NCBI RefSeq assembly: GCF_018417635.1 | Contig: NZ_CP071007.1 | Span: 1,984,501-2,048,500 of the forward strand | Reading direction: 5' to 3' | Length of the DNA: 64,000 nucleotides | Origin: Pseudomonas sp. SORT22 | Lineage (GTDB): Bacteria > Pseudomonadota > Gammaproteobacteria > Pseudomonadales > Pseudomonadaceae | Part shown: positions 23,753 through 41,840 of the stretch, piece by piece | Layout of the letters: every line of letters begins with the position of its first letter | Numbering within the stretch: position 1 is the stretch's first letter | Position numbers and translations under genes: made by a program | The notes under the pieces: generated by a model | What the model was told of the DNA's origin: nothing | Database searches by the model: none | What the model saw: only the letters and a program-made list of their open reading frames with translations

Positions 23753-24877
23753 ATGGCAACGATCAGAGCACGAAAAAAGGCCGACGGAACGGTCAGCTAC
23801 ACCGTCCAGATCCGTCTTAAAAACAAGGGTGTCCTAGTCTACCAAGAGTGCCAGACATTCGCCCGCAAGCAGGCTGCCCAGGCGTGGGCAAAGCGACGAG
23901 AGACAGAGCTAGCTGAACCTGGTGCGATCGAGCGAGCAAACCGCAAGGGGCACACCGTTCGGGAAATGATTGACCGCTACCTGGTCGAAGGCGCCAAGGT
24001 CCGGCCGCTTGGGAAAACCAAGAAGGCTACGTTGCTCGCCATTGCTGCGAGCCACTTCGGAGAGGTAGTGGACTCTGCTATCAACAGCCAGATCCTGGTT
24101 GATTACGCTTTGTGGCGCATGAGCCCTGAAGGTGGCGCTGTACAGCCGCAGACGGCTGGCAACGATCTCGCACACCTCGGATCGGTGCTATCGGTGGCTC
24201 GGCCTGCTTGGGGGTATGAGGTGGAACCTCACGCCATGAGTGATGCCCGTACCGTGTTGAAGAAGCTCGGGTACAACATGAAAAGCCGTGAGCGTGATCG
24301 TCGGCCGGCGATGGTTGAGCTGGACAGGCTGCTTGAGCACTTCTTCGAGATGCAGAAGCGTCGGCCATCGTCTATCAACATGCCAAAGGTGCTTGCCTTC
24401 GCCCTGTTCTCGACGCGTCGTCAGGAGGAGATCACGCGAATCCGCTGGGCTGATCTGGATGAAGAGCGGCAGGCAGTGAAGGTTCGGGACATGAAGAACC
24501 CGGGGCAGAAGATCGGTAACGATGTCTGGTGCCATTTGCCGGATGAGGCCTGGGCGATTGTCCACAGCATGCCTCGGGAGTGCGATGAGATATTCCCTTA
24601 CAACAGTGATTCAATCTCGGCCGCATGGACCAGGGCTTGCCAGTTCCTAGAGATCGAGGACCTGCACTTCCACGACTTGCGGCATGAGGGGGTCAGTCGC
24701 TTGTTTGAGATGGACTGGGATATTCCGCGAGTGGCGAGTGTTTCGGGTCATAGGGACTGGAACTCACTACGCCGTTATACGCATCTGCGGGGGCGGGGTG
24801 ATAATTACCGCGATTGGAAGTGGTTAGAGCAAATAAAGAAGGCGCCCGTAGAGTTGGGCGCCCGGATCAAGGCGTAA
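23753..24877 (+). CDS. int: Tyrosine-type phage integrase (dusA-associated)
   Basis: The 374-residue recombinase integrates and excises the prophage. Its N-terminus (ATIRARKKADGTVSYTVQIR) is the arm-binding fold; the C-terminal catalytic domain has the Arg in FSTRRQEEITRIRW (about 222), HDLRHEG (about 307), the SGHRDW His (about 332) and the nucleophile Tyr in RRYTHLR (about 341). The ATG at 23753 lies after the GTACC repeats; the frame is open from 23522 but the upstream part is dusA antisense. It is convergent with the PrtN-like gene, two bases apart. Confidence 0.93.
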   Translation: MATIRARKKADGTVSYTVQIRLKNKGVLVYQECQTFARKQAAQAWAKRRETELAEPGAIERANRKGHTVREMIDRYLVEGAKVRPLGKTKKATLLAIAASHFGEVVDSAINSQILVDYALWRMSPEGGAVQPQTAGNDLAHLGSVLSVARPAWGYEVEPHAMSDARTVLKKLGYNMKSRERDRRPAMVELDRLLEHFFEMQKRRPSSINMPKVLAFALFSTRRQEEITRIRWADLDEERQAVKVRDMKNPGQKIGNDVWCHLPDEAWAIVHSMPRECDEIFPYNSDSISAAWTRACQFLEIEDLHFHDLRHEGVSRLFEMDWDIPRVASVSGHRDWNSLRRYTHLRGRGDNYRDWKWLEQIKKAPVELGARIKA

Positions 24878-24878
24878 G

Positions 24879-25154
24879 TCAGCTGGCTTTCTTGTATCCG
24901 TTGAGCTGTGCGCATTCCTTTAATGCGGCTTCTCGTTGTTGGTCCAGATAGAGCGCCAAGTCGGCGATATGAATCCCTTTGGCGCTCTTCTGGCTGGACT
25001 CAAGTCGAGTGATGGGGATTTTGATCTGACCAGCCAAGACTTTACGCTCTAACATCTTTACAGTTAGGTGTGTGAAGTAATCGTTGCACACCTGCTCCAG
25101 AGGGATGACAGCAAGCCCGTTGTATTGCGCCATCAGTACGAAGGACGTATTCAT
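24879..25154 (-). CDS. PrtN-like pyocin/prophage activator
   Basis: The 91-residue protein resembles PrtN, the transcriptional activator of pyocin genes, along its length: MNTSFVLMAQYNGLAVIPLE, a VCNDYF/TVKML segment, then SQKSAKGIHIADLALYLDQQ. It is a small DNA-binding protein with a predicted helix-turn-helix. It is the last gene of the leftward early operon; its ATG overlaps the stop of the gene before it. The target may be the phage late genes, by analogy with pyocin control. Confidence 0.82.
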   Translation of the reverse strand: MNTSFVLMAQYNGLAVIPLEQVCNDYFTHLTVKMLERKVLAGQIKIPITRLESSQKSAKGIHIADLALYLDQQREAALKECAQLNGYKKAS

Positions 25155-25618
25155 AAATACCCCCTCTCTAAGGTGTCCTGTCGGTACGCTTCAATTAGTG
25201 CCTCACGAACATGCGTGTATTCGCCGGTCTCTGACTCGGTGTGTGGGAATCTTATTTCAGTTGTTTCGGGGTCGCTCCATATAGTGCCTCTCTGATCAAG
25301 CCATTCAATAAGTTGACTATCAGAAATACACTTATCCAGATGCATGCCAGGATGGATGTCGTGGTCGGGCGTGCCGCCCTCCGCTTTCGCCAAAGTGTGC
25401 TCGACCGTCACATCGGCGGTGGAGTGGCCAGCATGATCGTTGACGAGCTCGGGCTTACAGCCCTCGGCTTCTAGGCGGTGGCGCTCGATCTCTGTGATGA
25501 GTTCCAGAACAACCGCTGGCGGTACCGCCATGCCGTAGTCGTTCAGTACCAAACAGTCATACTGATCACGCTTGGCCGCCTCGGCTAGAGTCTTCAGTTT
25601 CAGGATGTCGACGCTCAT
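25151..25618 (-). CDS. Ead/Ea22-like early phage protein
   Basis: The 155-residue acidic protein starts DILKLKTLAEAAKRDQYD and continues with an LELITEIERHRLEAEG helix, which resembles the Ead/Ea22 family of lambdoid early proteins of unknown function. The ATG at 25618 overlaps the preceding stop (ATGA), so it is translationally coupled. The frame is open upstream to 25711, but this overlaps the preceding gene. Confidence 0.65.
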   Translation of the reverse strand: MSVDILKLKTLAEAAKRDQYDCLVLNDYGMAVPPAVVLELITEIERHRLEAEGCKPELVNDHAGHSTADVTVEHTLAKAEGGTPDHDIHPGMHLDKCISDSQLIEWLDQRGTIWSDPETTEIRFPHTESETGEYTHVREALIEAYRQDTLERGYL

Positions 25619-25803
25619 GCCTTGCTCTCCTGCTTGATGATGAACCCAGCCGCTTGGCGGGCCTTTGAGCATTTGTCGTGGCCGCCTGGGCGAGTACGAG
25701 ACTTGCCGCACACGTCGCAGATCGCCGACATCGCTGGGCGAAGCAGGGACTGCATGCCCCCGGGCGTTCTGGTCTCAGGTTGATAGCTGATAGTCGTATT
25801 CAC
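25615..25803 (-). CDS. Small zinc-ribbon-like phage protein
   Basis: A 62-residue product with CDVCGK and HDKCSK, spaced to form a small zinc-binding knuckle in the second half. No named family recognised. It overlaps both neighbours by four bases within the leftward operon. Confidence 0.6.
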   Translation of the reverse strand: MNTTISYQPETRTPGGMQSLLRPAMSAICDVCGKSRTRPGGHDKCSKARQAAGFIIKQESKA

Positions 25804-26003
25804 AGTGAATACCTCTCATGAGCGCGGCGGGCTGCAGGGCTCAGCACTAGAGCGGTGGCAGCGTCGGCATTGATAACAGTCGGTAACATGCCTTTAGAGG
25901 CGAGCGCACAGGGCACTACCTGGTATAGGGCAGTGAGTGCGGCAACCAGCCCCACTGTCAGTACCACGCTGATGAACTGCCAGATGCGTTCTGGTTTAGG
26001 CAT
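25800..26003 (-). CDS. Small single-pass membrane protein
   Basis: A 67-residue product starting MPKPERIWQF, followed by a hydrophobic stretch FISVVLTVGLVAALTALYQV (about residues 10-29) and a short polar tail. One membrane segment is likely. Function unknown. It overlaps the downstream gene by four bases and the upstream gene by eight. Confidence 0.5.
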   Translation of the reverse strand: MPKPERIWQFISVVLTVGLVAALTALYQVVPCALASKGMLPTVINADAATALVLSPAARRAHERYSL

Positions 26004-26289
26004 TGCGGCGGGCCTCGATCTGCATAAGGACCAGAGCGCGGGCATATGCAAACAGTTGGTCCGCTGATACGGGCTCTATGCGCTGCTCCCCGTTCTGCAG
26101 GGCTTCCAGGCGAGTGCGGTAAAGCCCGGCCGGGCCGAGCCACGCGACGGCGTTGTGTTCGGCGTCCGACACTGGACAGTCGTGGTTTTTGGGGCGGGGG
26201 CCTTGGTGGTCTCGACCACATTTTCTGCAGTGATGCAGGCCGCCGTCGTAACCTTCGGATGTGTACCAATTGTGGCTATGTGTGCTCAT
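25996..26289 (-). CDS. Hypothetical phage protein with N-terminal zinc-finger pattern
   Basis: A 97-residue product. The first 40 residues carry HHCRKCGRDH followed by NHDCPVS, a Cys/His pattern that could bind zinc. The rest is helical with EALQNGEQRIEPV. No known function. ATGA overlap with the methyltransferase gene upstream. Confidence 0.6.
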   Translation of the reverse strand: MSTHSHNWYTSEGYDGGLHHCRKCGRDHQGPRPKNHDCPVSDAEHNAVAWLGPAGLYRTRLEALQNGEQRIEPVSADQLFAYARALVLMQIEARRNA

Positions 26290-28115
26290 GCGGCCTCCTG
26301 CTGGTACAGGTCGATCAGGTCTTTCGCATTGGCGGCGATCAGGTCTTCAGCCTCATCGGGGCAAACACTGTTGCCGATCAGGCGTATCTGGTCAGTGTTC
26401 TTGATGGGGCGCCATTCCAGATGGCCAGTTTCTGCGTTCTCGAACAGGCCGCGATCGAGGATGTAGTCAGGGCTGAATCCCTGAGCGAGCTTCAGTTCGG
26501 GGGCTTTGAGCATGCGCAGGGTGAAATCGACTAGGGCGTGCTCGCCCAGCAGTATCACGTCGACCGGCTCAGGGAAGTGCTCCGGCAGGTACTTGTGCAG
26601 GAAACGGGCGCACTTGTGGGCCTTCTCCATCAACTCGGGAGGTAGGATCGCGGCGGGCACCTGAACTACGGTGACCAATGCCATGCGTTCTTTGGTAGGC
26701 AAGGTGTGCATCGGTTCGTACATGCCTTGCCATTGGCCGCCTGTGCCGTAGTACTTCACCAGGTACGCAGAGGCCAGGCGTTGATTGGTGCCGCGCCCAA
26801 GAATCGTGCTCAGTGGCGCCTTGGCTGCTCGGCCATCACCCTTGTAGAACCCGCCGTTCGCCTGTTCGAAGTGGCAGGCTACGACCGCGTGGTGGCCGCT
26901 GCTGGTGGTAAGGGCATTAACGGGCTGGCCCATCCCGTTGCCGATGGAGCCTTTACGCAGGGTGATCATGGAGGCGGTGACCAAAGCCTGCTCGCCTCGG
27001 TTAGCGCCGGTGATCGTGCGGGTTGCCTCGGTAATTGGGTAACCCGAGCGGTCCCCGTGATGGGTCAGGTGGGTGAGGTGTGCTGCGGCCAGAGCGAAGT
27101 GGCCGCCCTTGATCTGCGCAACCTGAGTACGCAGCGGCTCGGCGGCACTGAACGTTCGTTGAGTGCTCGCGTTAGCGAACTCAGTGAGACTCGCCGCTGC
27201 CAGCTGTTGCTCGTCCAGCTGGAGCACGAAGGGCTGCTCAGCCATGACGGTATGGCGCCAGAAGCCCTTGGCTACGCGGCGGCAGGTGTTGTCCACCAGC
27301 GGGCGCTTTCGGGTGAACAGGCTTTTGCCCAGGTCAGTGAAGTCAATGCACTCGGCGGCGGTTCGCCACGGCAGTTGACCCGACTTGGGATTCTCGTGTC
27401 GTTTCGGTTTCGTCCACACGATGGGACGGCCATCGGTGCGGCCGATGAGGAACAGACGCTTACGGATGGTGGGTGATCCTGCGTTCGAGGCGCGGCGCTC
27501 ACGCCACTGCACGTCGCAGCCCAGTCCGCGCACTAAGGCATCCATTGGCACCCACTGGCCGATGCAGTCGATGATCTCGTCCATGTCCGGGTGATCGGCT
27601 GCGAGGCCGGTAGTGAGGCAGGCGACAAACGCCTTGAAAGTACGGCCCATTTCCGACTTGATCGGCTTGCCCTGGTCGTCCAATGGGCCCCAGGCCTGGA
27701 ACTCTTCAACGTTTTCCATCAGGAAAAGGCGTGGGCGGGTCACGTAGACCCAGCGAACCACGACCCAAGGCAGCGAGCGCACGCTCTTACTGCGTGGGGC
27801 GCCGCCTTTCGCCTTGCTGAAATGGCGGCAGTCTGGCGATGCCCACAGGATGCCGACAGGTTGACCGCCGGTCGCCTGCAGTGGGTCGACCTCGTAGATG
27901 TCGCTGATGTAGTGGCGGGTGTTGCGATGGTTCGCTCGGTGAACTGCGATAGCGATTGGGTTGTGGTTAATGGCCACGTCGGGATCGCGGTAGGCGCGGG
28001 CCCCGCCGCTGCTGGCCCCGCCGGCGCCGGCGAACAGATCCACATAAAGCTCGCGCTGGAAGGGCAGGGCGTGCTGCTGTGCTCCCGCCAAACTGATCTG
28101 TTGGGCGATAGTCAT
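26286..28115 (-). CDS. Phage DNA (cytosine-5) methyltransferase
   Basis: The 609-residue protein methylates cytosine in DNA, probably to shield phage DNA from host restriction. Motif I is DLFAGAGGASSG (about residues 27-38), the catalytic loop is ASPDCRHFSKAKG with the nucleophile Cys, motif VI is MENVEEF, and motif VIII-like KRLFLIGR follows; motif X IGNSVCP is at the C-terminus. The catalytic motif is not the canonical PPCQ but SPDCRH. A long variable target-recognition region (about 230-480) lies between VIII and IX. It overlaps both neighbours by four bases. Confidence 0.88.
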   Translation of the reverse strand: MTIAQQISLAGAQQHALPFQRELYVDLFAGAGGASSGGARAYRDPDVAINHNPIAIAVHRANHRNTRHYISDIYEVDPLQATGGQPVGILWASPDCRHFSKAKGGAPRSKSVRSLPWVVVRWVYVTRPRLFLMENVEEFQAWGPLDDQGKPIKSEMGRTFKAFVACLTTGLAADHPDMDEIIDCIGQWVPMDALVRGLGCDVQWRERRASNAGSPTIRKRLFLIGRTDGRPIVWTKPKRHENPKSGQLPWRTAAECIDFTDLGKSLFTRKRPLVDNTCRRVAKGFWRHTVMAEQPFVLQLDEQQLAAASLTEFANASTQRTFSAAEPLRTQVAQIKGGHFALAAAHLTHLTHHGDRSGYPITEATRTITGANRGEQALVTASMITLRKGSIGNGMGQPVNALTTSSGHHAVVACHFEQANGGFYKGDGRAAKAPLSTILGRGTNQRLASAYLVKYYGTGGQWQGMYEPMHTLPTKERMALVTVVQVPAAILPPELMEKAHKCARFLHKYLPEHFPEPVDVILLGEHALVDFTLRMLKAPELKLAQGFSPDYILDRGLFENAETGHLEWRPIKNTDQIRLIGNSVCPDEAEDLIAANAKDLIDLYQQEAA

Positions 28116-28609
28116 GCCGCTTCCCCCGTGTCTGTTGGCTTGGCGGGGGTGATACGCAACTGGGCATGTACGCGGGCGGCGAGCTCTTCGATGTAGCGTT
28201 GCTGGTCATTAGCGTGCTGGGTCTGAGGGTCGACGTGCAGGGCCTTCCAGGTGCGGCCGGCCAGCTTCAAAGTGTTGGCGGTTTTGGTCAGCAGGTCGTG
28301 GTCAGCCCTGGTCACCGGCATGTCGGTGTAGGACATGATCCGGTCTTCAAGCTCTTTGACCCTGCCCTGGAGAGCGGCTTTGATGGTGAGGTGCTTTCGT
28401 TGTTCGGCTTCAAGCTGGATGGCGAGCTCGTCTCGCTCGATGCGTATCGACGCGATCCGCTGAGAGTTGATTGCGTCGCGGGTTTCAAGCCCTGCCGCTC
28501 TTCCGCTGTCGAATGCGCGAGTCCGGGCTTTTGCGAAAAGGAAAGGCAGGAATGCCAGGGTGAACAGCCAAAGGGCTGCGAGGGCCAGGATGTAGTGTTG
28601 CTGTTGCAT
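28112..28609 (-). CDS. Membrane-anchored coiled-coil phage protein
   Basis: A 165-residue product. It has an N-terminal membrane segment (residues about 6-26), then a long charged helical region (about 45-100, IERDELAIQLEAEQ) with coiled-coil character. Start 28609 has CTGGAG upstream; a long palindrome (28627-28675) precedes it. No function recognised; the layout resembles spanin or Rz-like anchors, but the place in the early operon argues against lysis. Confidence 0.55.
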   Translation of the reverse strand: MQQQHYILALAALWLFTLAFLPFLFAKARTRAFDSGRAAGLETRDAINSQRIASIRIERDELAIQLEAEQRKHLTIKAALQGRVKELEDRIMSYTDMPVTRADHDLLTKTANTLKLAGRTWKALHVDPQTQHANDQQRYIEELAARVHAQLRITPAKPTDTGEAA

Positions 28610-28626
28610 GTGTTGTGCTCCAGGTG

Positions 28627-28675
28627 TTGCTCGGCACCAAGCCGTGAAGCCGTGGTGAGGTTCGATGCCGAGCAA
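28627..28675 (-). ncRNA. Hairpin 4: ten-base-pair stem with a CCTCACCAC loop
   Basis: On the minus strand TTGCTCGGCA pairs perfectly with TGCCGAGCAA across a 29-base loop that contains CCTCACCAC, a shorter form of the loop motif of the hairpins at 30662-30769. It lies in the leader of the membrane coiled-coil gene, just before its ribosome-binding site. Confidence 0.5.
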
Positions 28676-28702
28676 GGTGTCCCAACAGGCCGGGACCGCC
28701 GT

Positions 28703-28942
28703 TTACGCCGTTTGCTTCGATTGGGAGTCGAGGAAGTCAGCAAGGTCGTGCAGGTAGACCACGGTTTGCGCTCGTGCCGAGTTATGCACCTTGCTGAGCT
28801 TGAGTTTGACCCGGTTGGTCTTGATCAACTCGCGCAGCCGGCGGTCTGTCTTTATGTGCGGGAAGTAGTGCTCTCGCACCGCTGATAGCGTTGGGCAAGG
28901 CGTGGTGAACTGCTTGCGCAGCTGGGCCAGCGTGTCAGTCAT
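28703..28942 (-). CDS. Small PrtN-like DNA-binding phage protein
   Basis: A 79-residue product. Its second half (KTDRRLRELIKTNRVKLKLS then VYLHDLADFLDSQ) follows the pattern of the PrtN family, including the DLAxxLDxQ ending shared with the 24879-25154 gene. The ATG at 28942 has GGGGAG upstream. It overlaps the preceding gene by eight bases. A regulator is likely; the exact role is unknown. Confidence 0.5.
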   Translation of the reverse strand: MTDTLAQLRKQFTTPCPTLSAVREHYFPHIKTDRRLRELIKTNRVKLKLSKVHNSARAQTVVYLHDLADFLDSQSKQTA

Positions 28943-29447
28943 GGGTGCTCCCCGCCCCCTCTTGGGTGGGCCGGAGCTTGACGCGTACGGATTCTGCAAG
29001 ATGGTTCTTACATCTGCCGGTGACAGCCGCACAGATTTCGCCTTGTACGTTGGTCACAACGACCCCGAAGGGGCGCTCCGAGTTGGTAGTCGGGGTGATG
29101 TAGGCGATCTGATCCCCTTCAAGCACGCCGTTCACGCTGTCGAGTGCTTCCATAAGAGCAAACGCCTGCTGCGACAGTTGCCCAGACTCAGTCCGGCCAT
29201 TCGCCAGGTCTTGCATAAAGTCCCGCAAGGCGATGTATTTCGCCGAGTCGCCGCGTTGCAGTGTGAGAGAGCCGGTGAGAGGGCCGAAGGTAACTTTCAG
29301 CCGATGAGTGCGGTCATCGTTCTCAACGTCGATTCGAGCGTCAATGGACGTCTCAGGTCGGCGCATGGGGCAGGTGGTTGTGCCGCCATTTTCCAGAACG
29401 TGCTGAAGCAGCATGACTCGCTTGAGGGGGAGAATGTACTCGCTCAT
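28935..29447 (-). CDS. Hypothetical phage early protein
   Basis: A 170-residue product with no family I recognise. It has a beta-rich first half (RLKVTFGPLTGSLTLQRGD) and a C-terminal half with VVVTNVQGEICAAVTGRC. ATG 29447 overlaps the stop of the 53-residue gene by four bases, and the two form the start of the PL operon. Confidence 0.55.
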   Translation of the reverse strand: MSEYILPLKRVMLLQHVLENGGTTTCPMRRPETSIDARIDVENDDRTHRLKVTFGPLTGSLTLQRGDSAKYIALRDFMQDLANGRTESGQLSQQAFALMEALDSVNGVLEGDQIAYITPTTNSERPFGVVVTNVQGEICAAVTGRCKNHLAESVRVKLRPTQEGAGSTHD

Positions 29448-29605
29448 GCGGCACCTCCAGCGGGGATGGCGCGAACGATTCCTGTCGGAGAGACAATCAG
29501 TTGGAGCCCGGTGCGACGCTGGAAAGCGTCCACGATAGCAGGGCGAGTGCAGGTGGTTGGATGCAAGTAGACCTTGCATTCACTAGCGATATGTATGGGT
29601 TGCAT
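29444..29605 (-). CDS. 53-residue first gene of the leftward (PL) operon
   Basis: A small open frame, MQPIHIASECKVYLHPTTCT then a basic stretch with DAFQRRTG and a hydrophobic end, starts directly after a hairpin that carries TGAGG at good Shine-Dalgarno distance. Its stop overlaps the next start (ATGA), which supports real translation. It is the first gene after PL, the position of N in lambda. The protein is not strongly arginine-rich, so an N-like role is only a possibility. Confidence 0.6.
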   Translation of the reverse strand: MQPIHIASECKVYLHPTTCTRPAIVDAFQRRTGLQLIVSPTGIVRAIPAGGAA

Positions 29606-29644
29606 GTCTGGACCTCAGTGGTGAGAGGGGGGTGCGGTCCAGAC
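29606..29644 (-). ncRNA. Hairpin 3: nine-base-pair stem with a CCTCTCACCAC loop at PL
   Basis: On the minus strand GTCTGGACC pairs with GGTCCAGAC across a 21-base loop that contains CCTCTCACCAC, the first 11 bases of the loop motif in hairpins 1 and 2. It lies between PL and the first leftward gene. The predicted PL start point (about 29636) falls near the end of the left arm, so the full hairpin would form only in longer transcripts or as a DNA cruciform. Confidence 0.5.
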
Positions 29645-29671
29645 AATACTCAAACGAATTTATCAGGTCAA
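29643..29671 (-). promoter_or_regulatory. Leftward early promoter PL
   Basis: On the minus strand TTGACC (29671-29666), a 17-base spacer and TATTGT (29648-29643) form a near-consensus sigma70 promoter. It has the same layout as PR, including the operator word that runs into the -10 box. Confidence 0.8.
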
Positions 29672-29684
29672 TACATGTTCGTAT
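29646..29684. promoter_or_regulatory. Left operators (two sites) for the phage repressor
   Basis: Two 14-bp sites fit AT-N-CG-N4-CG-N-AT with one change each: ATACTCAAACGAAT at 29646-29659 and ATACATGTTCGTAT at 29671-29684. Their centres are 25 bp apart and they cover the -10/spacer and -35 of PL, so repressor binding would block it. Confidence 0.78.
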
Positions 29685-29704
29685 TGATCGGTTAGGAGGT
29701 TTGG

Positions 29705-30364
29705 TTAGAAAATCTCCACTTTCGAAATCACCACGCCGCAGATCAGTGCGCTATCAGGTAACTCAATGATTGGGTCGGGCCAGGAGGGATTGAGTGGCTT
29801 GAGAAATTGGCGCGTTCCCTCGCAGACGATCTGCTTGAAGGTCGCTTCCCGGCTGTCGGGTAGCTTGGCTATAACAAGTGACCCGTTCTCGTAGTCTTTA
29901 GCTGGATCTACAAAGATTATGTCGCCATCCCTGAATGACCGCCGCTCATGGGGGTTGAACATCGAAAGCCCCCTTACTCGTAGCGCGAAGGTACCGCTAC
30001 TGTGGGATACGGCGCAGGGAAGCCACGTCTCCACATCTTGCAGCTCGAGCACGTCCTGCATCTCGCACCACGCCCCGGCCTGGACCCATGAAATCAGAGG
30101 GACAAAGCCGCGAACGCGAGGACCTGGCTCGATGTTGGAGTTAGGTCCAACAGTCATGTCAGGAGCTTCGCCTCCTTTCCAGAGCCACTCGCTGGTAACC
30201 CCCAGGGCTTTTGCAAGCTTCTCGACATTCGATTGGCGAGGGCTAGCGGATGTCCCTGTCAGGATCCTGTGGATGGTGGGTTGAGGTACGCCTGAACGCC
30301 TACCTAGTTCCCCTTCCGACCAGCCTAGTTCCTGCATTCGCTGGGCTATGCGTTTTCCAATCAC
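29705..30364 (-). CDS. CI-like prophage repressor with S24 autocleavage domain
   Basis: The 219-residue repressor keeps the prophage silent. It has an N-terminal helix-turn-helix (GELGRRSGVPQPTIHRILTG, about residues 18-37) and a LexA/CI-like S24 domain with cleavage site Ala96-Gly97 (VQAGAW), catalytic Ser134 (RGLSMF) and Lys177 (TFKQI). RecA-stimulated self-cleavage after DNA damage is expected. It starts with GTG and faces Cro across the operator region. Its own promoter is weak and not clearly seen. Confidence 0.93.
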   Translation of the reverse strand: MIGKRIAQRMQELGWSEGELGRRSGVPQPTIHRILTGTSASPRQSNVEKLAKALGVTSEWLWKGGEAPDMTVGPNSNIEPGPRVRGFVPLISWVQAGAWCEMQDVLELQDVETWLPCAVSHSSGTFALRVRGLSMFNPHERRSFRDGDIIFVDPAKDYENGSLVIAKLPDSREATFKQIVCEGTRQFLKPLNPSWPDPIIELPDSALICGVVISKVEIF

Positions 30365-30376
30365 GGCTATTGCTCG

Positions 30377-30450
30377 ATTCGTTTGCGTATCGGAATTGTA
30401 TTGCTCTGGTTAATTCGTTTGGGTATTATCCGCTCAATTCGATAACGCAT
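30377..30450. promoter_or_regulatory. Right operators (three sites) for repressor and Cro
   Basis: Three 14-bp sites lie between the repressor and Cro genes: ATTCGTTTGCGTAT at 30377-30390, ATTCGTTTGGGTAT at 30413-30426 and ATTCGATAACGCAT at 30437-30450. They share the palindrome AT-N-CG-N4-CG-N-AT (one change in the middle site) and match the left operators. The middle site overlaps the -10 of PR, and the first lies just upstream of the repressor start. Confidence 0.82.
30401..30429 (+). promoter_or_regulatory. Rightward early promoter PR
   Basis: TTGCTC (30401-30406), a 17-base spacer and TATTAT (30424-30429) drive cro and the genes after it. The operator word ATTCGTTTGGGTATT runs into the -10, as it does at PL. 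Confidence 0.8.
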
Positions 30451-30461
30451 CGGTGGGTGCA

Positions 30462-30656
30462 ATGACCATTCAAGAGATGCTTCAAAAACTGATTGAGTTG
30501 GGATTCTCCCAGCGGGCAATTGCTGAGCGGGTGGGGGTTACCCAGCCGACTATCTATCGCGCAACGAAGGGGGCGGCAGTCCGCTATGAGGTGGGCAAGG
30601 CTGTTGAGCAGTTCTACGAAGAGCAAATCAAGATCGCAAATAAGCCCCAAAAGTAA
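30462..30656 (+). CDS. Cro-like repressor
   Basis: This 64-residue helix-turn-helix protein (FSQRAIAERVGVTQPTIYRA, about residues 17-36) is divergent from the CI-like repressor and first under PR. The position and size are those of Cro, which turns down both early promoters and the repressor gene. The ATG at 30462 is preferred; a GTG nine bases upstream is the alternative. Two unusual hairpins follow within 6 bases. Confidence 0.85.
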   Translation: MTIQEMLQKLIELGFSQRAIAERVGVTQPTIYRATKGAAVRYEVGKAVEQFYEEQIKIANKPQK

Positions 30657-30661
30657 GGAGT

Positions 30662-30702
30662 GCTGAGCTGGGCCTCTCACCACAAGAACCTCCCAGCTCA
30701 GC
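30662..30702 (+). ncRNA. Hairpin 1: eleven-base-pair stem with conserved loop
   Basis: GCTGAGCTGGG (30662-30672) pairs perfectly with CCCAGCTCAGC (30692-30702). The loop region contains GCCTCTCACCACAAGAA (17 bases, first G at the stem end), which recurs exactly in hairpin 2 although the stems are unrelated. It lies six bases after the cro stop, where lambda has nutR. There is no T tract, so it is not an ordinary terminator. Confidence 0.75.
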
Positions 30703-30733
30703 GTTGACGATGTATTAGCACCGCTACACCCGC

Positions 30734-30769
30734 CATCCGGTTGCCTCTCACCACAAGAATCACCGGATG
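30734..30769 (+). ncRNA. Hairpin 2: eight-base-pair stem with the same loop as hairpin 1
   Basis: CATCCGGT (30734-30741) pairs with ACCGGATG (30762-30769). The 20-base loop holds GCCTCTCACCACAAGAA (30743-30759), identical to the 17 bases of hairpin 1, 71 bases away. Conserved loop with different but intact stems points to a structured RNA whose loop is recognised by a protein or another RNA. Confidence 0.75.
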
Positions 30770-30882
30770 ACTAGAACGACATGCCGTGTCGCACAACACA
30801 CTTGAACAGGCACATCGGTCGTGGTCGTAGGATAGGGCTTGCCCAATCCTGTGGCTACACCGTTAATCGAGGTTTAACGGTT

Positions 30883-31371
30883 ATGAGTCGTATTGATCTA
30901 TTTCCACGTCCAGGCGTGGTCCTCAGGCTTCGGCGGGCGCTCTATCGTGCAGGGCGCGATCCAGAGGGCGGCATTACTTCAGCAGCTTATGAGATGGGCA
31001 TGGATGTCGATGCTCTGCAGAAAAAGCTCAACCCCAATGAAGAGCGCCGCTGGCTTTCGCCCGATGAGCTAGAAGAGTTTCTGGCATTGAGGCCCGATCC
31101 AAGGGTGCTCGACGCGATTTGCAGGGCGGCGGGAGTTGTGTGGTACCGCCCGGAGCCAGTTCCTGCCACAAATGAAGCGCTTAAAGCTGTCGGCAAGCTG
31201 CTTGATGAGGCTGGCGAGTTCGTTAGCAGCATGCACGATGGTGCGGCGGACAATATCTGGGAGCTGCATGAGGTGCTGCATCTTGAACAGCGCGGCATGG
31301 ATGTGATCCGGCAGGTGTTGGCCATCATGGCCGGTGCTCGTCAGGCCATGGAGGACCGCACCAATGGCTAA
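30883..31371 (+). CDS. CII-like phage regulatory protein
   Basis: This 162-residue protein follows the Phage_CP76/CII pattern: VLRLRRALYRAGRDPEGGIT, SAAYEMGMDVDALQKKLNP (helix-turn-helix region, about residues 31-49) and LSPDELEEFLAL. It is expected to activate lysogeny promoters. An eight-base-pair palindrome (ACCGTTAA / TTAACGGT, 30859-30881) encloses the GAGG ribosome-binding site and could control its translation. The gene overlaps the next one by eight bases. Confidence 0.8.
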   Translation: MSRIDLFPRPGVVLRLRRALYRAGRDPEGGITSAAYEMGMDVDALQKKLNPNEERRWLSPDELEEFLALRPDPRVLDAICRAAGVVWYRPEPVPATNEALKAVGKLLDEAGEFVSSMHDGAADNIWELHEVLHLEQRGMDVIRQVLAIMAGARQAMEDRTNG

Positions 31372-31576
31372 CCATCCAGATCCTCTCGACGTTGCAAACG
31401 AGCAGGCCGAGTACTTCCTTCAAATGGCGCTTCAGCGCCATACGCAAAAGCCCAGCAAACCTAGCGCCCAGTTCTGTGAGGATTGCGACGACGCTATTCC
31501 GTTGCTGCGTCAGCAATTGGTCGCGGGTTGTGAGACCTGCGTGAGTTGCCAGGAGCTGCGGGAGCGGCGTAGATGA
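31364..31576 (+). CDS. TraR/DksA-type zinc-finger protein
   Basis: This 70-residue protein has the C4 zinc-finger of the DksA/TraR family: CEDCDDAIP and, 17 residues later, CVSC near the C-terminus. Phage TraR-like proteins bind RNA polymerase in the secondary channel and mimic ppGpp/DksA. The ATG at 31364 overlaps the CII stop and the gene overlaps the primase by four bases, so the three are coupled. Confidence 0.85.
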   Translation: MANHPDPLDVANEQAEYFLQMALQRHTQKPSKPSAQFCEDCDDAIPLLRQQLVAGCETCVSCQELRERRR

Positions 31577-34341
31577 GCGAGCCCAAAGGACATTCGATTG
31601 CGGCATGGTCGCGGCGTTATATCGAAACTTTCGGGCTCGCTCTGGTACCCGTTGAACCAGGAGAGAAGGGGCCCAAGGGGGACGCCTGGAACAAGCCCGG
31701 TGGTTACTTCACTGATGCCGACGCGGCCGAGGCGTTCTGGGCTGCTCATCCAACCCACAACCTTGGTGTAGTGCTTGGCCCAAGCCAGGTGTGCTCGCTG
31801 GACGTTGATGAAGTAGAGATGTCGCGGCAGGTCCTGCAGGAGGCATTCGGGCTGGACCTCGATGCGCTTGCCGCCGCCCATCCCACCACCGTGGGTAACC
31901 CTGCGCGTTTTCGCGTTATGTTTCGGGTGCCTACAGGCGTTGAATTGAGTCGTCGCTCGCTCACTTGGCCCAACCAGGCGGACCCGGATGGCTCGATTCT
32001 GAAGGCTCTCACCGCTCAGATGGTGGCAGCCAAAAAGGCGGGTGACGCGGGCAGGGTAGCCGCGCTGCGCATGGCTGCAGAGCCCTTCAAACGGACAACC
32101 GTGTTCGAACTGCGGGGTGGTGCTGTTCAAGACGTTCTGCCGCCATCCATTCATCCTGGTACTGGCCAGCCGTACACTTGGCGCAATCCACCCCCGCCTG
32201 AGGGCATGCCTGAGCTGCCAGCTGAATTGTTGGCAATTTGGCTTGGATGGGATCAACTCAAGGCTCAGGCGCAAGCGGTGTGTCCTTGGGCGCCTAAGCC
32301 TGCAGCTGCTCCGGCCCTTCCTGCCTCGAGGCCCCACTTAGCCGCTGAACGTTCTGGAGATCGACTGCCAGAGGTCATTCCCGAGTTCAACCGTTGTCAC
32401 GACATCGCAACGCTGATCGAGGCCCACGGCTACGAGCGTAGAGGTGACAAGTGGCTGTGCCCGCACAGCAGCAGTGGCGATCCAGGAGTGACCATCATCG
32501 ATGGCAAGCTCTATTCACATCACAGCTCCGATCCGCTTGCCAATGGCCACAAGAACGACGCTTTCGACGTTTTCTGCATCCTGATGCACGACGGTGACCA
32601 GCGGGCAGCGACCAGAGCGGCTGCGAAGGCCCTCGGTTTGGATGTTAAGTCGCGTCCACCAGCCCCACCGCCTCTCGGCGAGCTTCCCCATGCCCCATCG
32701 GTAAATGAGCCCGTGAGGCAGCCAGCCGGTGCGGCCACAACTGAACAGGAAGAAGGTGTGGCCCGCGAAGCATTGGATAGCGAGGTAGCCAGCTCGGCCG
32801 GCTCCTCAGGCCAAGGGGGCGCGGGGGGTAATGGTTTGGACATCGACGGAGCGATGCGGCGGTTCGCCCTGGTCGAGAGCACCACCAACGTGTGGGACTT
32901 CGACAAGGGTAAGCCTATGAAGCGGACCGGTTTCGAGGCCCTGGTTGGCAAGCCGCTCGCGAAGGAATGGATGGAGCGGACCGACAAGAAGTTGATCGCG
33001 TCGGAGAAGGTCCAAGAGCTGGACCAGGCGCGGCGTCTGTCGGCCAAAAAAGGCGCAGCGTTGAAGATGGACCCTATTGAACGCTATGTGTACATCGACG
33101 GCACAAAGGACGTCTGGGACCGCGAGAAGAAACGGCGCATCGCTGAAGGCGCTGTGAAGATGGCCCTGGGCGAGGAATACAAGTGGTGGTTGAACAGCCA
33201 GGATCGTCGGGTGGTGGACGTCGACCATATCGTGTTCGACCCGACCATGCGCAAGGACCCGAATGTTTACATCAATACCTTCGACGGGTTGCCCCTGGAG
33301 CCGGTGCGTGATGACGCCGCATGCGAGAACCTGCGATGGTTGATCTCATTCCTCTGCAACCATGACAACAAGGCGCTGGATTGGCTGGTCAAGTGGCTTG
33401 CGTATCCGCTGCAGCACATGGGAGCCAAGATGGACACCGCCGTCTTGATGCATTCGATCATGGAGGGTTCCGGCAAGAGTTTGCTGTTTGCTGATGTGTT
33501 CGGCCAGCTGTATGGCCAATACGCGGCGACCGTCGGGCAGACGCAGCTGGAGGGCAGCTTCAACGCCTGGCAAAGCCGCAAACTATGGGCGGTGTTCGAA
33601 GAAGTCGTCAGCCGGGATCAACGCTACAACCAGGTGGGCAAGATCAAGCACATGATCACCGGTAAGACGGTGCGCATGGAGTCCAAGTTCATCAATGGTT
33701 GGGAGGAAGCCAACCATATGAACGCGGTCTTCCTGAGTAACGAGATCATGCCGTGGCCGATCAGCGACGCTGACCGCCGAATGCTGGTTATGTGGCCAAT
33801 GGAGACGCTGCCGGTCGAACGGCAAAAGGCGATCAGTCATGAACTGGCCAACGGCGGGGTGGCGGCGTTGTATGGCTGGCTGTTGGCTGTAGACCTGGGT
33901 GAGTTTGACCAGCGCACGCGTCCGCCTGATACCGAGGCGCGTCAGCGGTTGGTAGCCCTGAGTCGCACGGCCTGGCAAACCTTCCTTTTCCTTTGGCGTA
34001 CTGGCGAGCTGGGGCATGGCCTATGGGGTTGCTGCCTCACCAGCGATCTGTATGCACTGTTCCTCGAGTGGTGCTCACGCAATAAGGAGCACTCCATGAG
34101 TCAGACCAAGTTCTCGCTGATGCTCAGCGCGACGGTGGAGAAGACGCGGGCGATCCCCTGGACCGATGGCAACAACCGGCGTTTCGCCGCGTTCTTCTTT
34201 CCCAGTGACGGCGATCCCTCCCTGCCCCCTTCCTTGAAGTCGGCCGAGCTGGGCAAGAACGTCGTCGAGTGGCGTGCTCGGGCAAAGCTCGCCGGCTGGA
34301 ACGTGGACGCTTGGGAGCACGTCAAGGGGATCGCGGCATGA
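31573..34341 (+). CDS. Primase-helicase replication protein (prim-pol plus D5/DUF5906 helicase)
   Basis: This 922-residue protein probably starts phage DNA replication. The N-terminal third is a prim-pol-type domain (about residues 10-240, with LGVVLGPSQVCSLDVDE). A middle region contains a short CPHSSSGDPG zinc-like patch, a Gly/Ser-rich linker (about 395-425), and a C-terminal SF3 helicase of the DUF5906/D5 type with Walker A EGSGKS (about 630), Walker B-like WAVFEE and a sensor region FLSNEIMPW. The same protein type in P4-like elements binds origin repeats; iteron-like repeats follow directly downstream. Confidence 0.87.
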   Translation: MSEPKGHSIAAWSRRYIETFGLALVPVEPGEKGPKGDAWNKPGGYFTDADAAEAFWAAHPTHNLGVVLGPSQVCSLDVDEVEMSRQVLQEAFGLDLDALAAAHPTTVGNPARFRVMFRVPTGVELSRRSLTWPNQADPDGSILKALTAQMVAAKKAGDAGRVAALRMAAEPFKRTTVFELRGGAVQDVLPPSIHPGTGQPYTWRNPPPPEGMPELPAELLAIWLGWDQLKAQAQAVCPWAPKPAAAPALPASRPHLAAERSGDRLPEVIPEFNRCHDIATLIEAHGYERRGDKWLCPHSSSGDPGVTIIDGKLYSHHSSDPLANGHKNDAFDVFCILMHDGDQRAATRAAAKALGLDVKSRPPAPPPLGELPHAPSVNEPVRQPAGAATTEQEEGVAREALDSEVASSAGSSGQGGAGGNGLDIDGAMRRFALVESTTNVWDFDKGKPMKRTGFEALVGKPLAKEWMERTDKKLIASEKVQELDQARRLSAKKGAALKMDPIERYVYIDGTKDVWDREKKRRIAEGAVKMALGEEYKWWLNSQDRRVVDVDHIVFDPTMRKDPNVYINTFDGLPLEPVRDDAACENLRWLISFLCNHDNKALDWLVKWLAYPLQHMGAKMDTAVLMHSIMEGSGKSLLFADVFGQLYGQYAATVGQTQLEGSFNAWQSRKLWAVFEEVVSRDQRYNQVGKIKHMITGKTVRMESKFINGWEEANHMNAVFLSNEIMPWPISDADRRMLVMWPMETLPVERQKAISHELANGGVAALYGWLLAVDLGEFDQRTRPPDTEARQRLVALSRTAWQTFLFLWRTGELGHGLWGCCLTSDLYALFLEWCSRNKEHSMSQTKFSLMLSATVEKTRAIPWTDGNNRRFAAFFFPSDGDPSLPPSLKSAELGKNVVEWRARAKLAGWNVDAWEHVKGIAA

Positions 34342-34365
34342 GTGCGTCAGTAAGTGTGGTGGGTG

Positions 34366-34625
34366 TGTTGGGTTGGTGTTGGGTCCGTTCTGGCAGGCCA
34401 ACACAGTCTCAAGCCCCGGAATCAGCAGGGGGGCGGGCATCCGTGGCGGGTGTGTTGGGTTTGCGCACGCGCACGCGCAGGCGCGCCAACTTTAGTGGCG
34501 CCGCTATAGGTGAATTCAAAGTCCATGCGAAACTTCAAAAACTCAACAAACCCAACACACTCGACACAACCATAGGCAATCAATTGATTTTATTGAGTTT
34601 TAACTGTGTTGGGTTTGTGTTGGGT
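34366..34625. other. Iteron-like repeats, candidate replication origin
   Basis: Between the primase-helicase gene and the next gene (34342-34666, no coding frame seen) the word TGTTGGGT occurs at 34366, 34377, 34453, 34607 and 34618 and once inverted (34550-34557). Two pairs are spaced 11 bp, one helical turn. An AT-rich core with CAATCAATTGATTTTATTGA lies between the inverted copy and the last pair, and AAAACTCAA / TTGAGTTTT form a further inverted pair. Repeats, AT-rich core and the adjacent helicase gene are the elements of an iteron origin. No experiment shows this. Confidence 0.55.
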
Positions 34626-34666
34626 AGCGTGAATGTGTGTCGGGTTCAGTTTACGGTGAGGGGGCA

Positions 34667-35149
34667 ATGACAATGGATCAGACTGAACGCCTACAAGCGG
34701 TAGCGGATTTAATGTGTCATTGGGGCAGGCAGCGGTCCCTGCTTGGGCAGGATGCTGGATTAGGCAGCCAAATGGGCAGCATCATGGAATGGAAGGGGGC
34801 AGCCCCCCGAGGCGGATCATCTGGTGCGCGTATCCTGGTAGCCGGAGCTGGTCTGGATCACTCAGCGGCAGAAGTCGATGCAGCGGTCGCTGAACTGGAG
34901 CGCCGTGATCAGCGTGGTGCAACGTTGGCAAAGCTGGCCCAGTTCCGCTACTTGCATGGCGCAACGATCCGCGAGCAAATGCACCAGGTGGGGCTCGCCG
35001 AAGATGCTGATCGGACCTACCGTAACTGGGTCAAGGCGCTGCATTTGCAGGTGTTATCGATTCTTATAGCGCGCTCTGGTCCGAATCGACGGCATACCGT
35101 CCGTCGGCTAACAATGCGCCGAGTATGCGCCGGGGATGCGTCGAAGTAG
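34667..35149 (+). CDS. Probable Q-like late regulator (antiterminator position)
   Basis: A 160-residue product. The C-terminal two thirds (AVAELERRDQRGATLAKLAQ, then LHGATIREQMHQVGLAEDAD and TYRNWVKALH) resemble the helical repeat layout of Q/DUF1133-type phage antiterminators. The gene lies between replication and packaging genes and is followed by two terminators, as in lambda Q and tR'. The ATG at 34667 has GAGGGGG upstream; a second ATG lies six bases on. The assignment rests mostly on position. Confidence 0.5.
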   Translation: MTMDQTERLQAVADLMCHWGRQRSLLGQDAGLGSQMGSIMEWKGAAPRGGSSGARILVAGAGLDHSAAEVDAAVAELERRDQRGATLAKLAQFRYLHGATIREQMHQVGLAEDADRTYRNWVKALHLQVLSILIARSGPNRRHTVRRLTMRRVCAGDASK

Positions 35150-35162
35150 CGTCAAGGCTGCG

Positions 35163-35190
35163 AACCGAAAATCACCTCTTTTCGGTTTTT
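35163..35190 (+). terminator. Terminator after the Q-like gene
   Basis: A nine-base-pair stem AACCGAAAA / TTTTCGGTT with a seven-base loop runs into TTT. It lies just after the Q-like gene and before the late genes. Confidence 0.85.
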
Positions 35191-35291
35191 CCGGTGGCAT
35201 GTAAAAAGGCGCCACGATATGAAAAGTGCGCTTAGGCGCTGACCCAACAACCACTGTGCCATGCAATTGCTCCGGTCTTAGGTGCATTGAG

Positions 35292-35320
35292 AACCCTGCC
35301 ATTTGGCGGGGTTTTCTTTT
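35292..35320 (+). terminator. Second terminator before the late genes
   Basis: The stem AACCCTGCC / GGCGGGGTT (one G-T pair) with loop ATTT is followed by TTCTTTT. With the terminator 100 bases upstream it forms a tandem stop that late transcription must pass. Confidence 0.8.
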
Positions 35321-35342
35321 GGGAGTACGCAAGGAGATGACG

Positions 35343-35549
35343 ATGCGAGTTGAAGTACGAGATGAGGGGGGCGAATTGATTTGGTCGAGGAGCCCCGTAG
35401 GCGGCTTCACCAGCAACACCTACGGAGCAGATGGAACCCTCAAGCGTTTAGAACGAGCGCTGATGATGGCGCTTGATCAGTGTCGAGGTGAACTAGTCAT
35501 TTCGGTGGATAGTAATCGAGTGGCGGATCTGGGCGGACCCACCACCTAG
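35343..35549 (+). CDS. Small hypothetical phage protein
   Basis: A 68-residue product, MRVEVRDEGGELIWSRSPVG onwards, with beta-rich first half and helical second half. ATG 35343 has AAGGAG at six bases. No family recognised. Its 3' end overlaps the convergent DUF1883 gene by 57 bases. Confidence 0.5.
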   Translation: MRVEVRDEGGELIWSRSPVGGFTSNTYGADGTLKRLERALMMALDQCRGELVISVDSNRVADLGGPTT

Positions 35550-35759
35550 GTCAATAGTGATGTTCCAGTAGCCGGAATGTGGCGCAGCGATGCGTGCAGG
35601 CAGTTGCTTGTAGAAGCCACCGTAGTACGTGTGCTTCTTACCATTCTTGAAGTTCGAAAACTGAGAGTCGGTGGTCAGTCGAACATTGCATTGGTGAGAG
35701 CACTGTACCTCGACAACATCGCCTTCGTTCAAGTGTTCGCGTTTGTGCAAGAACTGCAT
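35493..35759 (-). CDS. DUF1883 domain protein, antisense to the late operon
   Basis: This 88-residue protein is a complete DUF1883 domain (MQFLHKREHLNEGDVVEVQC, then YYGGFYKQLPARI and YWNITIDLGGG). The domain is also found fused to TIR domains, so a signalling or defence role is possible. It has its own strong AAGGAGG ribosome-binding site and is transcribed opposite to the late genes. Its lower GC and reversed orientation suggest acquired cargo. Confidence 0.82.
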   Translation of the reverse strand: MQFLHKREHLNEGDVVEVQCSHQCNVRLTTDSQFSNFKNGKKHTYYGGFYKQLPARIAAPHSGYWNITIDLGGGSAQIRHSITIHRND

Positions 35760-40619: not shown

Positions 40620-41840
40620 ATGCCGCGAGCACTTGAGCTGGCTGCCTCGCAGCCCTGGCTGATGCTGCCCGACGCCCTGGACAACCTGTTGGCCATCTCT
40701 GATCGCATGGGCGATCCGGTGGCACTGGCGACCAAGCGCGGCGAGCGGCTGGAAGAAACCCGCAGTGTCAGCCTGCGCAACGGCGTGGCGGTGGTACCGG
40801 TCATAGGGCCGATCTTTCGCTACGCCAACTTGTTCACCGAGATCAGCGGCGCGACCAGTACTCAGGTCCTGGCCACCGATATCCAGCGCGCCTTGGATGA
40901 CCCGAAGGTCAAGGCCATTGTGCTCAACATCGACAGCCCTGGTGGCGTGGCGTCGGGCATCAACGAACTGGCCGAGATGATCTTTGCCGGTCGCTCCCGC
41001 AAACGCATCGTCGCGTACATCGGCGGCACGGGGGCGAGCGCAGGTTACTGGATCGCCTCGGCAGCCAGCGAAATCGTCATCGACGAGGCCAGTCTGGCGG
41101 GCAGCATCGGCGTCGTTGTCGAAGCGGTTGTCGAAAACGAGTCGGCCAGCGGCCGCAAGCGATACCAGATCGTCAGCCGCAACGCCCCGAACAAGCGCCT
41201 GGACCTCTCCACCGAGGAAGGGCGCAGCAAGCTCGGCGAGACCATCGACGCCCTGGGCGATGTCTTCGTGAGCAAGGTTGCCCGCAACCTGGGTGTCGAT
41301 GCCGAGACAGTCCCCGAGATGGGCGACCACGGCGGGTTGCGTGTCGGCGCTGATGCCGTCAAGCACGGCCTGGCCCATCGCGTGGGCTCGCTGGAAGCCC
41401 TGCTCACCGAACTGGCCAAACCGGCCATCACCTCCACAAGGATACACACCATGACCACCGTCAAGACCACGGCAGACCTGCGTGCGGCACTGGCTGCCGG
41501 TACCGACGTCAACACCATCGAGATTGCCCAGGCTGACCAGCCGGACACCGCCTCGATCCGTACCGAGGCTGCTACCGAAGAGCGCGAGCGGATCAAAGGC
41601 ATCAATGCGCTGGCCAGCAAGGGCTTCGAGAAGGAAATCGAGGCGGCCATCGATAACGGCAGCTCTGTTGAAGCGACCGCGCTGGTGATGTTCAAGGCCG
41701 CACAGGATCGCGGTATTTCGCTGGCAAGCATCAAGAGCGATGCCCAGGGCGTAACCGGCACCACCCCAACCGGCGACGGCAAGCAAGGCGAGCGCAAGGC
41801 CGCCGTCAGCGCCATTGTTTCAGGCGCCTCGCGCCGTTAA
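40620..41840 (+). CDS. Capsid maturation protease of S49 family (lambda GpC-like) with scaffold domain
   Basis: The 406-residue protein has an N-terminal S49/ClpP-like protease (about residues 1-260; LNIDSPGGVASG, catalytic Ser near 140 in GTGASAGYWIAS) and a C-terminal scaffold part (from about 278). As in lambda C/Nu3, the scaffold part has its own start (see 41451-41840). The protease processes scaffold and portal during capsid assembly. Confidence 0.9.
   Translation: MPRALELAASQPWLMLPDALDNLLAISDRMGDPVALATKRGERLEETRSVSLRNGVAVVPVIGPIFRYANLFTEISGATSTQVLATDIQRALDDPKVKAIVLNIDSPGGVASGINELAEMIFAGRSRKRIVAYIGGTGASAGYWIASAASEIVIDEASLAGSIGVVVEAVVENESASGRKRYQIVSRNAPNKRLDLSTEEGRSKLGETIDALGDVFVSKVARNLGVDAETVPEMGDHGGLRVGADAVKHGLAHRVGSLEALLTELAKPAITSTRIHTMTTVKTTADLRAALAAGTDVNTIEIAQADQPDTASIRTEAATEERERIKGINALASKGFEKEIEAAIDNGSSVEATALVMFKAAQDRGISLASIKSDAQGVTGTTPTGDGKQGERKAAVSAIVSGASRR
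41451..41840 (+). CDS. Nested capsid scaffold protein (Nu3-like)
   Basis: Within the protease gene, in the same frame, an ATG at 41451 follows AAGGATACACACC, a good ribosome-binding site. The 129-residue product would be the scaffold alone: helical, Ala- and Glu-rich (EERERIKGINALASKGFE). This mirrors lambda Nu3, which is made from an internal start of gene C. Independent translation is inferred. Confidence 0.7.
   Translation: MTTVKTTADLRAALAAGTDVNTIEIAQADQPDTASIRTEAATEERERIKGINALASKGFEKEIEAAIDNGSSVEATALVMFKAAQDRGISLASIKSDAQGVTGTTPTGDGKQGERKAAVSAIVSGASRR

Follow-up and report, generated by a model that had tools for sequence, protein, structure and literature searches.

The window, i.e., the whole stretch of 64,000 nt that was analyzed, is part of the 5.8 Mb chromosome of Pseudomonas sp. 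SORT22 and contains a prophage control region with a lambda-like organization (Table 1). The left operon of the prophage is encoded on the minus strand. The window has a total of four hairpins that are relevant here, two in the PR leader, one in the PL leader, and one inside the left operon, and in addition a second conserved word, called the box. The left operon also contains a PrtN-family gene (pyocin activator, PF11112; 28703-28939, minus strand), which is annotated in several relatives too and whose family is named excisionase by PHROGs. Downstream of the phrog_4300 gene, at the position of lambda Q, there is a PR'-like short transcription unit that ends in a terminator-like hairpin. Another terminator-like hairpin is located on the minus strand at 24840-24863 (GGGCGCCC-AACTCTAC-GGGCGCCT, followed by a T-rich tail), and its loop happens to include CTCTAC.

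Table 1. Features of the prophage control region; positions refer to the window unless a phage is named.
Feature	Position	Strand	Remarks
Left-operon box GCACAACACA	28609..28618	-	between Shine-Dalgarno GGAG and ATG of the gene 28112-28609
Left-internal hairpin	28627..28675	-	14 bp in the predicted fold; loop has the shortened core CCTCACCAC
First PL-operon gene, phrog_13491	29444..29605	-	53 aa; candidate loop reader
PL-leader hairpin	29605..29645	-	stem TGTCTGGACC/GGTCCAGACA; core CTCTCACCAC at 29627-29618; loop with CCCTCTCACCAC
Putative PL promoter	29643..29671	-	TTGACC-17-TATTGT; sole promoter-like site in 24000-35600
CI-like repressor gene (phrog_4)	29705..30364	-	
cro-like gene (phrog_6831)	30462..30656	+	
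PR-leader hairpin 1	30662..30702	+	11 bp; loop CCTCTCACCACAAGAACCT
PR-leader hairpin 2	30734..30769	+	8 bp; loop carries the same 17-nt word as hairpin 1
Second word (box) GCACAACACA	30791..30800	+	GCACAGCACA or close variants in relatives
cII ribosome-binding hairpin	30859..30881	+	ACCGTTAA/TTAACGGT; GAGG in loop
CII-like gene (phrog_101)	30883..31371	+	
TraR/DksA-like zinc finger gene	31367-31576		
Large open frame	31573-34341		relatives annotated as primase
PR'-like unit	35160-35320; LPPA56 (L103) ~40640-40760		carries TGTGCTGTGC, complement of the box GCACAGCACA, in 27 of 45 loci; degenerate in the window (TGTGCCATGC)

The original prediction had described two hairpins of 11 bp and 8 bp with differing stems and a common 17-nt loop word at the nutR position between cro and cII, and direct reading of the sequence bore this out. 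The arms are GCTGAGCTGGG (30662-30672) and CCCAGCTCAGC (30692-30702) in hairpin 1, and CATCCGGT (30734-30741) and ACCGGATG (30762-30769) in hairpin 2. The word GCCTCTCACCACAAGAA is present in exact copies at 30672-30688 and 30743-30759; in hairpin 1 the left arm ends with the first G of this word, and the strict loops comprise 19 nt and 20 nt, respectively. Allowing up to three mismatches, the 17-mer has two matches in the window, while two or more matches were found in none of 100 shuffled sequences. The 131-nt stretch with both hairpins has a predicted folding energy of -39.1 kcal/mol (z -2.8), and 1 of 200 shuffled sequences was as good. Five bases separate the cro stop codon (30654-30656) from the stem of hairpin 1. 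A T tract is absent 3' of both hairpins, and a terminator scan of 30656-30883 found no terminator and thus none between the PR hairpins and cII, in agreement with the claim that they are not ordinary terminators.

The observation was correct and also understated. Missing from it were the two sister hairpins on the left side (PL leader and left operon), the existence of phage-specific loop versions, and the second word downstream. The putative PL promoter directly precedes the PL hairpin and the first left gene; taken alone, the promoter scan is weak, because shuffled sequences contained on average 4.1 sites versus the one found. The predicted PL start site falls within the left arm of the PL hairpin, which poses a genuine problem for an RNA hairpin at PL in the window. 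The third site is located farther downstream in the left operon. The box GCACAGCACA (GCACAACACA in the window) usually adjoins the sites. It is found downstream of the hairpins at PR, and in the left operon either between the Shine-Dalgarno sequence and the ATG or just past the ATG of the first left gene. In the left operons of the loci there are 74 copies of the word CACAGCACATG, versus none of each of 20 permuted words, and on the antisense strand of the same stretches, PR leaders included, there are 36. By eye, the remainder of the leader (30800-30881) is also conserved and looks structured, with GTAGGATAGG..CCTATGGCTAC in relatives and the hairpin at the cII Shine-Dalgarno sequence, which has the arms GTAAA/TTTAC in relatives and is thus apparently compensated. 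Therefore, the entire cro-cII leader may be one riboregulatory unit.

Compensated stems around a fixed loop had been regarded as the mark of a functional RNA, and the pairing and covariation of the stems of relatives back this view. For hairpin 1, an alignment of 20 sequences that were chosen from leader hairpins, hairpin 1 of the window among them, had 94.1% of its cells paired, and nine of 12 pairs had changed on both sides; the number of pair types was no better than in shuffles (491/500). The alignment for hairpin 2, made of 19 chosen sequences, had 92.6% of its cells paired, with nine of ten pairs changed on both sides (1/500 shuffles) and 48/500 shuffles for the number of pair types. None of 500 shuffles reached the values for cells paired or for the covariation score in either alignment, and slid structures dropped to 17-54% paired. 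Left arms paired with their own right arm at 0.91 of the inner positions and with the right arms of other hairpins at 0.56; this comparison covered the 40 of 41 distinct hairpins that were long enough, and the arms were chosen by pairing score, which inflates the value of 0.91.

The conservation of the loop was also seen in a sample that was assembled independently of it. Relatives were fetched via the CII-like protein (best 80 of 257), and UCUCACC was present in 75 of the 77 leaders that were long enough, CUCUGACC in the other two. Among viral contigs, 57 stretches contain the 16-mer CCTCTCACCACAAGAA; about 11 of these are, by eye, stemless chance matches, and in the remaining stretches it is a hairpin loop on varied stems, in most cases accompanied by another copy at a distance of 52-71 nt. 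TCTCACC was located in a stem with a good score in 203 of 381 occurrences, versus 0 to 4 of 38 to 99 for eight permuted words, whereby the share in stems is the evidence and not the count, because the loci were fetched for the word and overlap.

A search for the two-copy pattern that covered 84,980 genomes, each from a different species, yielded 12 matches, 11 of them in Pseudomonas; a match in Rossellomorea (L089) was dropped as a tandem repeat. A covariance model built from the hairpin-1 alignment scored hairpin 1, the sequence of which is in the model, with 55.2 bits at 30661-30703, and hairpin 2, the sequence of which is outside the model, with 19.6 bits at 30731-30772. The covariance search over Pseudomonas prophages that had been named as a check of the prediction was positive. 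Of 54 further loci, 53 had the site on the PR strand (E ≤ 0.1); these loci are part of the best 80 of 143, and in many of them the opposite strand of that hairpin gives a weak match as well. Within the genus, 36 of 298 genomes matched, the window's own included (E ≤ 0.001, strict filters). None of the 4227 Rfam models matched at the gathering threshold over the window, or at E ≤ 1 over 28500-31000. In the titles and abstract openings listed by searches of the open-access literature the element is undescribed, the loop word is absent, and so is a combination of boxA with a hairpin loop, which agrees with the earlier statement that no described element with this loop is known. The hairpins thus belong to a widespread and apparently undescribed set of RNA elements at both early phage operons.

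The arrangement of the sites is similar in relatives. In 55 of the 65 PR leaders that were placed by script (of 85), the hairpin starts 2-6 nt past an upstream frame of at least 50 codons. PR leaders have one to three hairpins with loops of 8-20 nt; many have one and some have three. In some of them (L014, L017, L028) two sites are about 140-160 nt apart, and those of L014 and L028 have a middle hairpin with the loop CCTCTCACCAAAGAAA. At PL one hairpin was seen per leader. UCUCAC is present in 73 of 79 PL leaders of a first set (80 examined, L120 not placed) and in 64 of 78 leaders of a second set; the six others of the first set have CUCUAC, CACUUACC, CACUCACC, CCCUCACCAC (two), and CUCUCUCAAA. 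A homolog of phrog_13491 is encoded in the left operon of 79 loci. The left-operon copies that were read are located just upstream of start codons, whereby one of the readings sought copies by that rule, and one such copy (LPPA56 ~31970, KT1 ~10257) has no strong stem. By computation, the stems are conserved at the RNA level, the sites are on the sense strand of both operons, and they are placed at PL, at PR, and in the left operon.

The loop had been predicted to be identical, which is true for the two PR hairpins of the window; across phages the identity breaks down, and phage-specific versions occur, namely CUCUCAC, CUCUAC, CACUUACC, and CACUCACC, as well as others in two genomes from a different family within the order. 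In the Pseudomonas aeruginosa phage LPPA56, PL, the left-operon sites, and the two PR hairpins all read CUCUAC. The same word was found at the PL, PR, and left sites read of the near-identical L201-L206 and of L212, which belong to a series of loci collected as relatives of the LPPA56 first-gene protein (best 80 of 143). In contrast, Lodos, Turba, and Presto have CUCUCAC at PL, at both PR hairpins, and at the left site, and L213 and L210 have it at the sites read. LPPA56 and Lodos differ in their loop words, although their CII, PrtN, and primase proteins are 90-100% identical. The Stutzerimonas phages PG1 (CACUUACC) and pAN (CACUCACC) each have the same word at PL and at the second PR hairpin, while their first PR hairpins, with UCUUACC in PG1 and CCUCACC in pAN, are unlike their other sites. 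Each of the two genomes of the other family has a phrog_13491-like gene and a hairpin with a CUGCAA loop at PL and PR on differing stems, a left-internal hairpin with ACCACC, and a box GCAAACCAAT at PL, at PR, and at several start codons.

Other genomes are mixed. In L208, PL and the left sites have CUCUCAC, whereas the two PR hairpins have CUCUAACC. The sites of L211 read CUCUAC except for one PR hairpin with CUCUGAACC, and L207 has CUCUAACC at PL and at the PR hairpin seen and CUCUAC on the left. The words of L209 are also mixed, and L135 has CUCUGAC at PR hairpin 1 and on the left and CUCUCUCAAA at PL. The left-internal loops of the window and of several putida-type phages contain the shortened CCUCACCAC or CCACCACCAC. 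Therefore, the loop words of a genome tend to agree, strongly so in several lineages, while in others the agreement is broken. Gene conversion is unlikely as its cause, because the stems of the sites differ. The fact that the word mostly agrees between dispersed sites suggests a phage-encoded reader, and a reader that tolerates some loop variation would be the simplest cause.

The element is thus probably an RNA site that is read by a factor of the phage itself. The factor would be a phage protein. A protein reader fits the loop best, and the idea of a small RNA suits the second word better than the loop. As judged from sequence comparisons, the best candidate, on thin evidence, is the phrog_13491 product, a protein of 53-69 aa encoded by the first gene of the PL operon. 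Five shared early proteins, CI and Cro not among them, were compared between two groups of six genomes each, one with CUCUAC and the other with CUCUCAC; L208 was assigned to its group by the PL and left loops, and the mixed L209 and the duplicates L202-L204 were left out. In this grouping only phrog_13491 has a column that separates the two classes (residue 49, Y/I versus T; 6 of 924 partitions were equal), and CII has none. Without L207 and L208, phrog_13491 has two separating columns (4/252 partitions) and CII has one at residue 129 (8/252). When L208 is classed by its PR loop, both proteins have one (6/792 for phrog_13491, 8/792 for CII). The outcome hinges on L208, and therefore phrog_13491 stays the best candidate and CII is also possible. 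The 94-aa and 122-aa proteins have no separating column in any grouping. The PrtN-family protein was rejected as the specificity factor, because it has no such column and is 100% identical between LPPA56 and Lodos, Turba, and Presto in spite of their different loops. The most divergent proteins between LPPA56 and the Lodos group are CI and Cro (26-32%), followed by an HD-type protein (63%) and the product of the first left gene (75-78%); for several LPPA56 genes, the stretches compared contained no match.

The sites occupy the places of nutL and nutR in lambda and of putL and putR in HK022, a resemblance that is positional. In lambda, nut consists of boxA and a boxB hairpin with a pentaloop, and it is read by the arginine-rich N protein, which is encoded first in the PL operon. 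Like nut, the hairpins are present on the sense strand in both the PL and the PR leader, on the right past cro, they fall into specificity classes between phages, and the first gene of the PL operon encodes a small product. Unlike nut, the loops have 8-20 nt, there are one to three hairpins at PR and extra copies in the left operon, and phrog_13491 is, by eye, not rich in arginine. The exact host boxA word CTCTTTAACA is absent from the window, and no separate boxA was seen beside the hairpins; CTCTTTA occurs three times in the window, and the hairpin loop itself is boxA-like. The put sites of HK022 are located just past PL and about 270 nt past the PR start, and they are described as a unit of about 70 nt with two stem-loops, which acts without a phage protein and forms a V-shaped fold on the zinc-binding domain of the RNA polymerase beta' subunit (PMC9378689). 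The sites in Pseudomonas share the positions just past PL and past cro, but do not form a fixed two-stem-loop unit, since many PR leaders have one hairpin and some three, and one was seen at PL; moreover, one loop word is found on unrelated stems, and the words are phage-specific. The latter argues for a phage-encoded reader, in contrast to the protein-independent put.

Our main reading, to which we tentatively assign a probability of roughly 40%, is a nut-like control of the early transcripts. A cis-acting RNA recognition element would mark the PL and PR transcripts of a family of temperate Pseudomonas phages, with hairpins 1 and 2 as its copy in the right operon. The stems would present the loop, and a phage-encoded factor, most likely the small phrog_13491 protein, would read the loop word on the nascent RNA just past PL and again past cro on the PR transcript. 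The bound factor would then alter elongation, so that transcription enters the delayed-early genes. The resemblance to lambda nut and N lies in the position, the sense orientation, the phage-specific loop words, and the small first-gene product. The model is weakened by the incomplete agreement of loop words within phages, by the predicted PL start inside the left arm, and by the lack of an intrinsic terminator between the PR hairpins and cII. The choice of phrog_13491 as the factor is weakened by its composition, by a poor AlphaFold model (pLDDT 63.6, pTM 0.38), and by the dependence of the residue test on L208.

The left-operon copies upstream of start codons, one of them without a strong stem, also weaken the nut-like model and would suit control of translation. 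Phage RNA translational operators, e.g., those of coat protein and RegA, are hairpins or single-stranded words near ribosome-binding sites that are read by a protein, and autoregulation is possible. By analogy, a phage RNA-binding protein, again probably phrog_13491, could bind the core in 5' leaders and control the translation or stability of its own mRNA and of the mRNAs of other early left genes and cII. The location of the box next to the ribosome-binding sites and start codons is in agreement with this explanation, as is the core within 80 nt upstream of 88 of 133 distinct left-operon boxes, versus 282 of 5000 random positions, whereby the loci are related. Furthermore, the copy without a strong stem lies beside a ribosome-binding site and follows the left-side loop word of its genome, and cII has a ribosome-binding hairpin of its own. 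However, the PR hairpins directly follow cro, at the nutR/putR position, and precede the cII start by more than 100 nt, and the left-internal hairpin leaves the Shine-Dalgarno sequence uncovered. In addition, and unlike translational operators, copies are present in the PR leader far from start codons, and one word is common to both early operons. Translational control is a close rival of the nut-like model, if a slightly less probable one.

It is improbable that the loop is a boxA-like site on a hairpin that is bound by the host NusB-S10 complex. CUCUUAC and CUCUCAC resemble boxA, which is CGCUCUUACACA in lambda, the sites have the position of nut, and the imperfect agreement of loops within phages weakens the case for a phage-specific reader. 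But the boxA of the host rrn operons, located in four loci at 177 nt ahead of the 16S start, is GCTCTTTAACA, and one host factor should not favor differing words, as are found in LPPA56 and Lodos, both of which are phages of P. aeruginosa. The PR'-like unit is possibly, as judged from its sequence, a phage small RNA against early ribosome-binding sites, yet that the hairpins themselves are the target of such an RNA is also improbable. The exact complement of the box, TGTGCTGTGC, is present in the PR'-like region of 27 of the 45 loci that were placed by an anchor word, and within two mismatches in 43 of 45, compared to 41 and 590 of 4616 random 200-nt windows. This complement matches the box and not the loop, however, and the PR' regions of LPPA56 and Lodos are almost alike, although the loops of the two phages differ. 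Moreover, the copy in the window is degenerate (TGTGCCATGC), and in the two genomes of the other family with the box GCAAACCAAT no complement was found past the gene at the phrog_4300 position. Least probable is a DNA-level inverted repeat, an operator or cruciform, with an incidental RNA structure: the left arm of the PL hairpin does overlap the -10 region in the window, but the loop is on the sense strand of both operons, compensatory changes occurred repeatedly on different stems, and the stems have no DNA sequence in common.

Additional candidates were tried and rejected. Complements of the loop that would make it an antisense target (GTGAGAG/GGTGAGA, in LPPA56 GTAGAGG/TGTAGAG) were sought in the window, KT1, LPPA56, and Lodos; by eye, they had no shared location beyond the opposite strands of the sites themselves, and none was in the PR' region. 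A kissing interaction of the loop CCUC with the GAGG of the cII ribosome-binding hairpin would leave CACC unexplained, and the first C's are, by eye, among the least conserved bases of the loop. An N-terminal extension of CII as the cause of leader conservation was discarded, as the frame to cII breaks, by eye, in L006-type leaders.

Detailed knowledge of the RNA control of early genes in lambda-like phages comes mainly from N/nut and put. It is conceivable, if unlikely, that the Pseudomonas phages have a new type of early-gene control, in which a loop word on drifting stems at PL, PR, and in the left operon would be read by a non-N protein of 53-69 aa, with the loop classes as phage-specific addresses, and maybe in cooperation with a small RNA from the PR' region, which would pair with the neighboring box. 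As the element is directly upstream of cII, it may offer a handle on the choice between lysis and lysogeny in these prophages. With an RNA element in 36 of 298 genomes of the genus, natural loop variants, and a small candidate protein, the specificity of the loop reader is directly testable.
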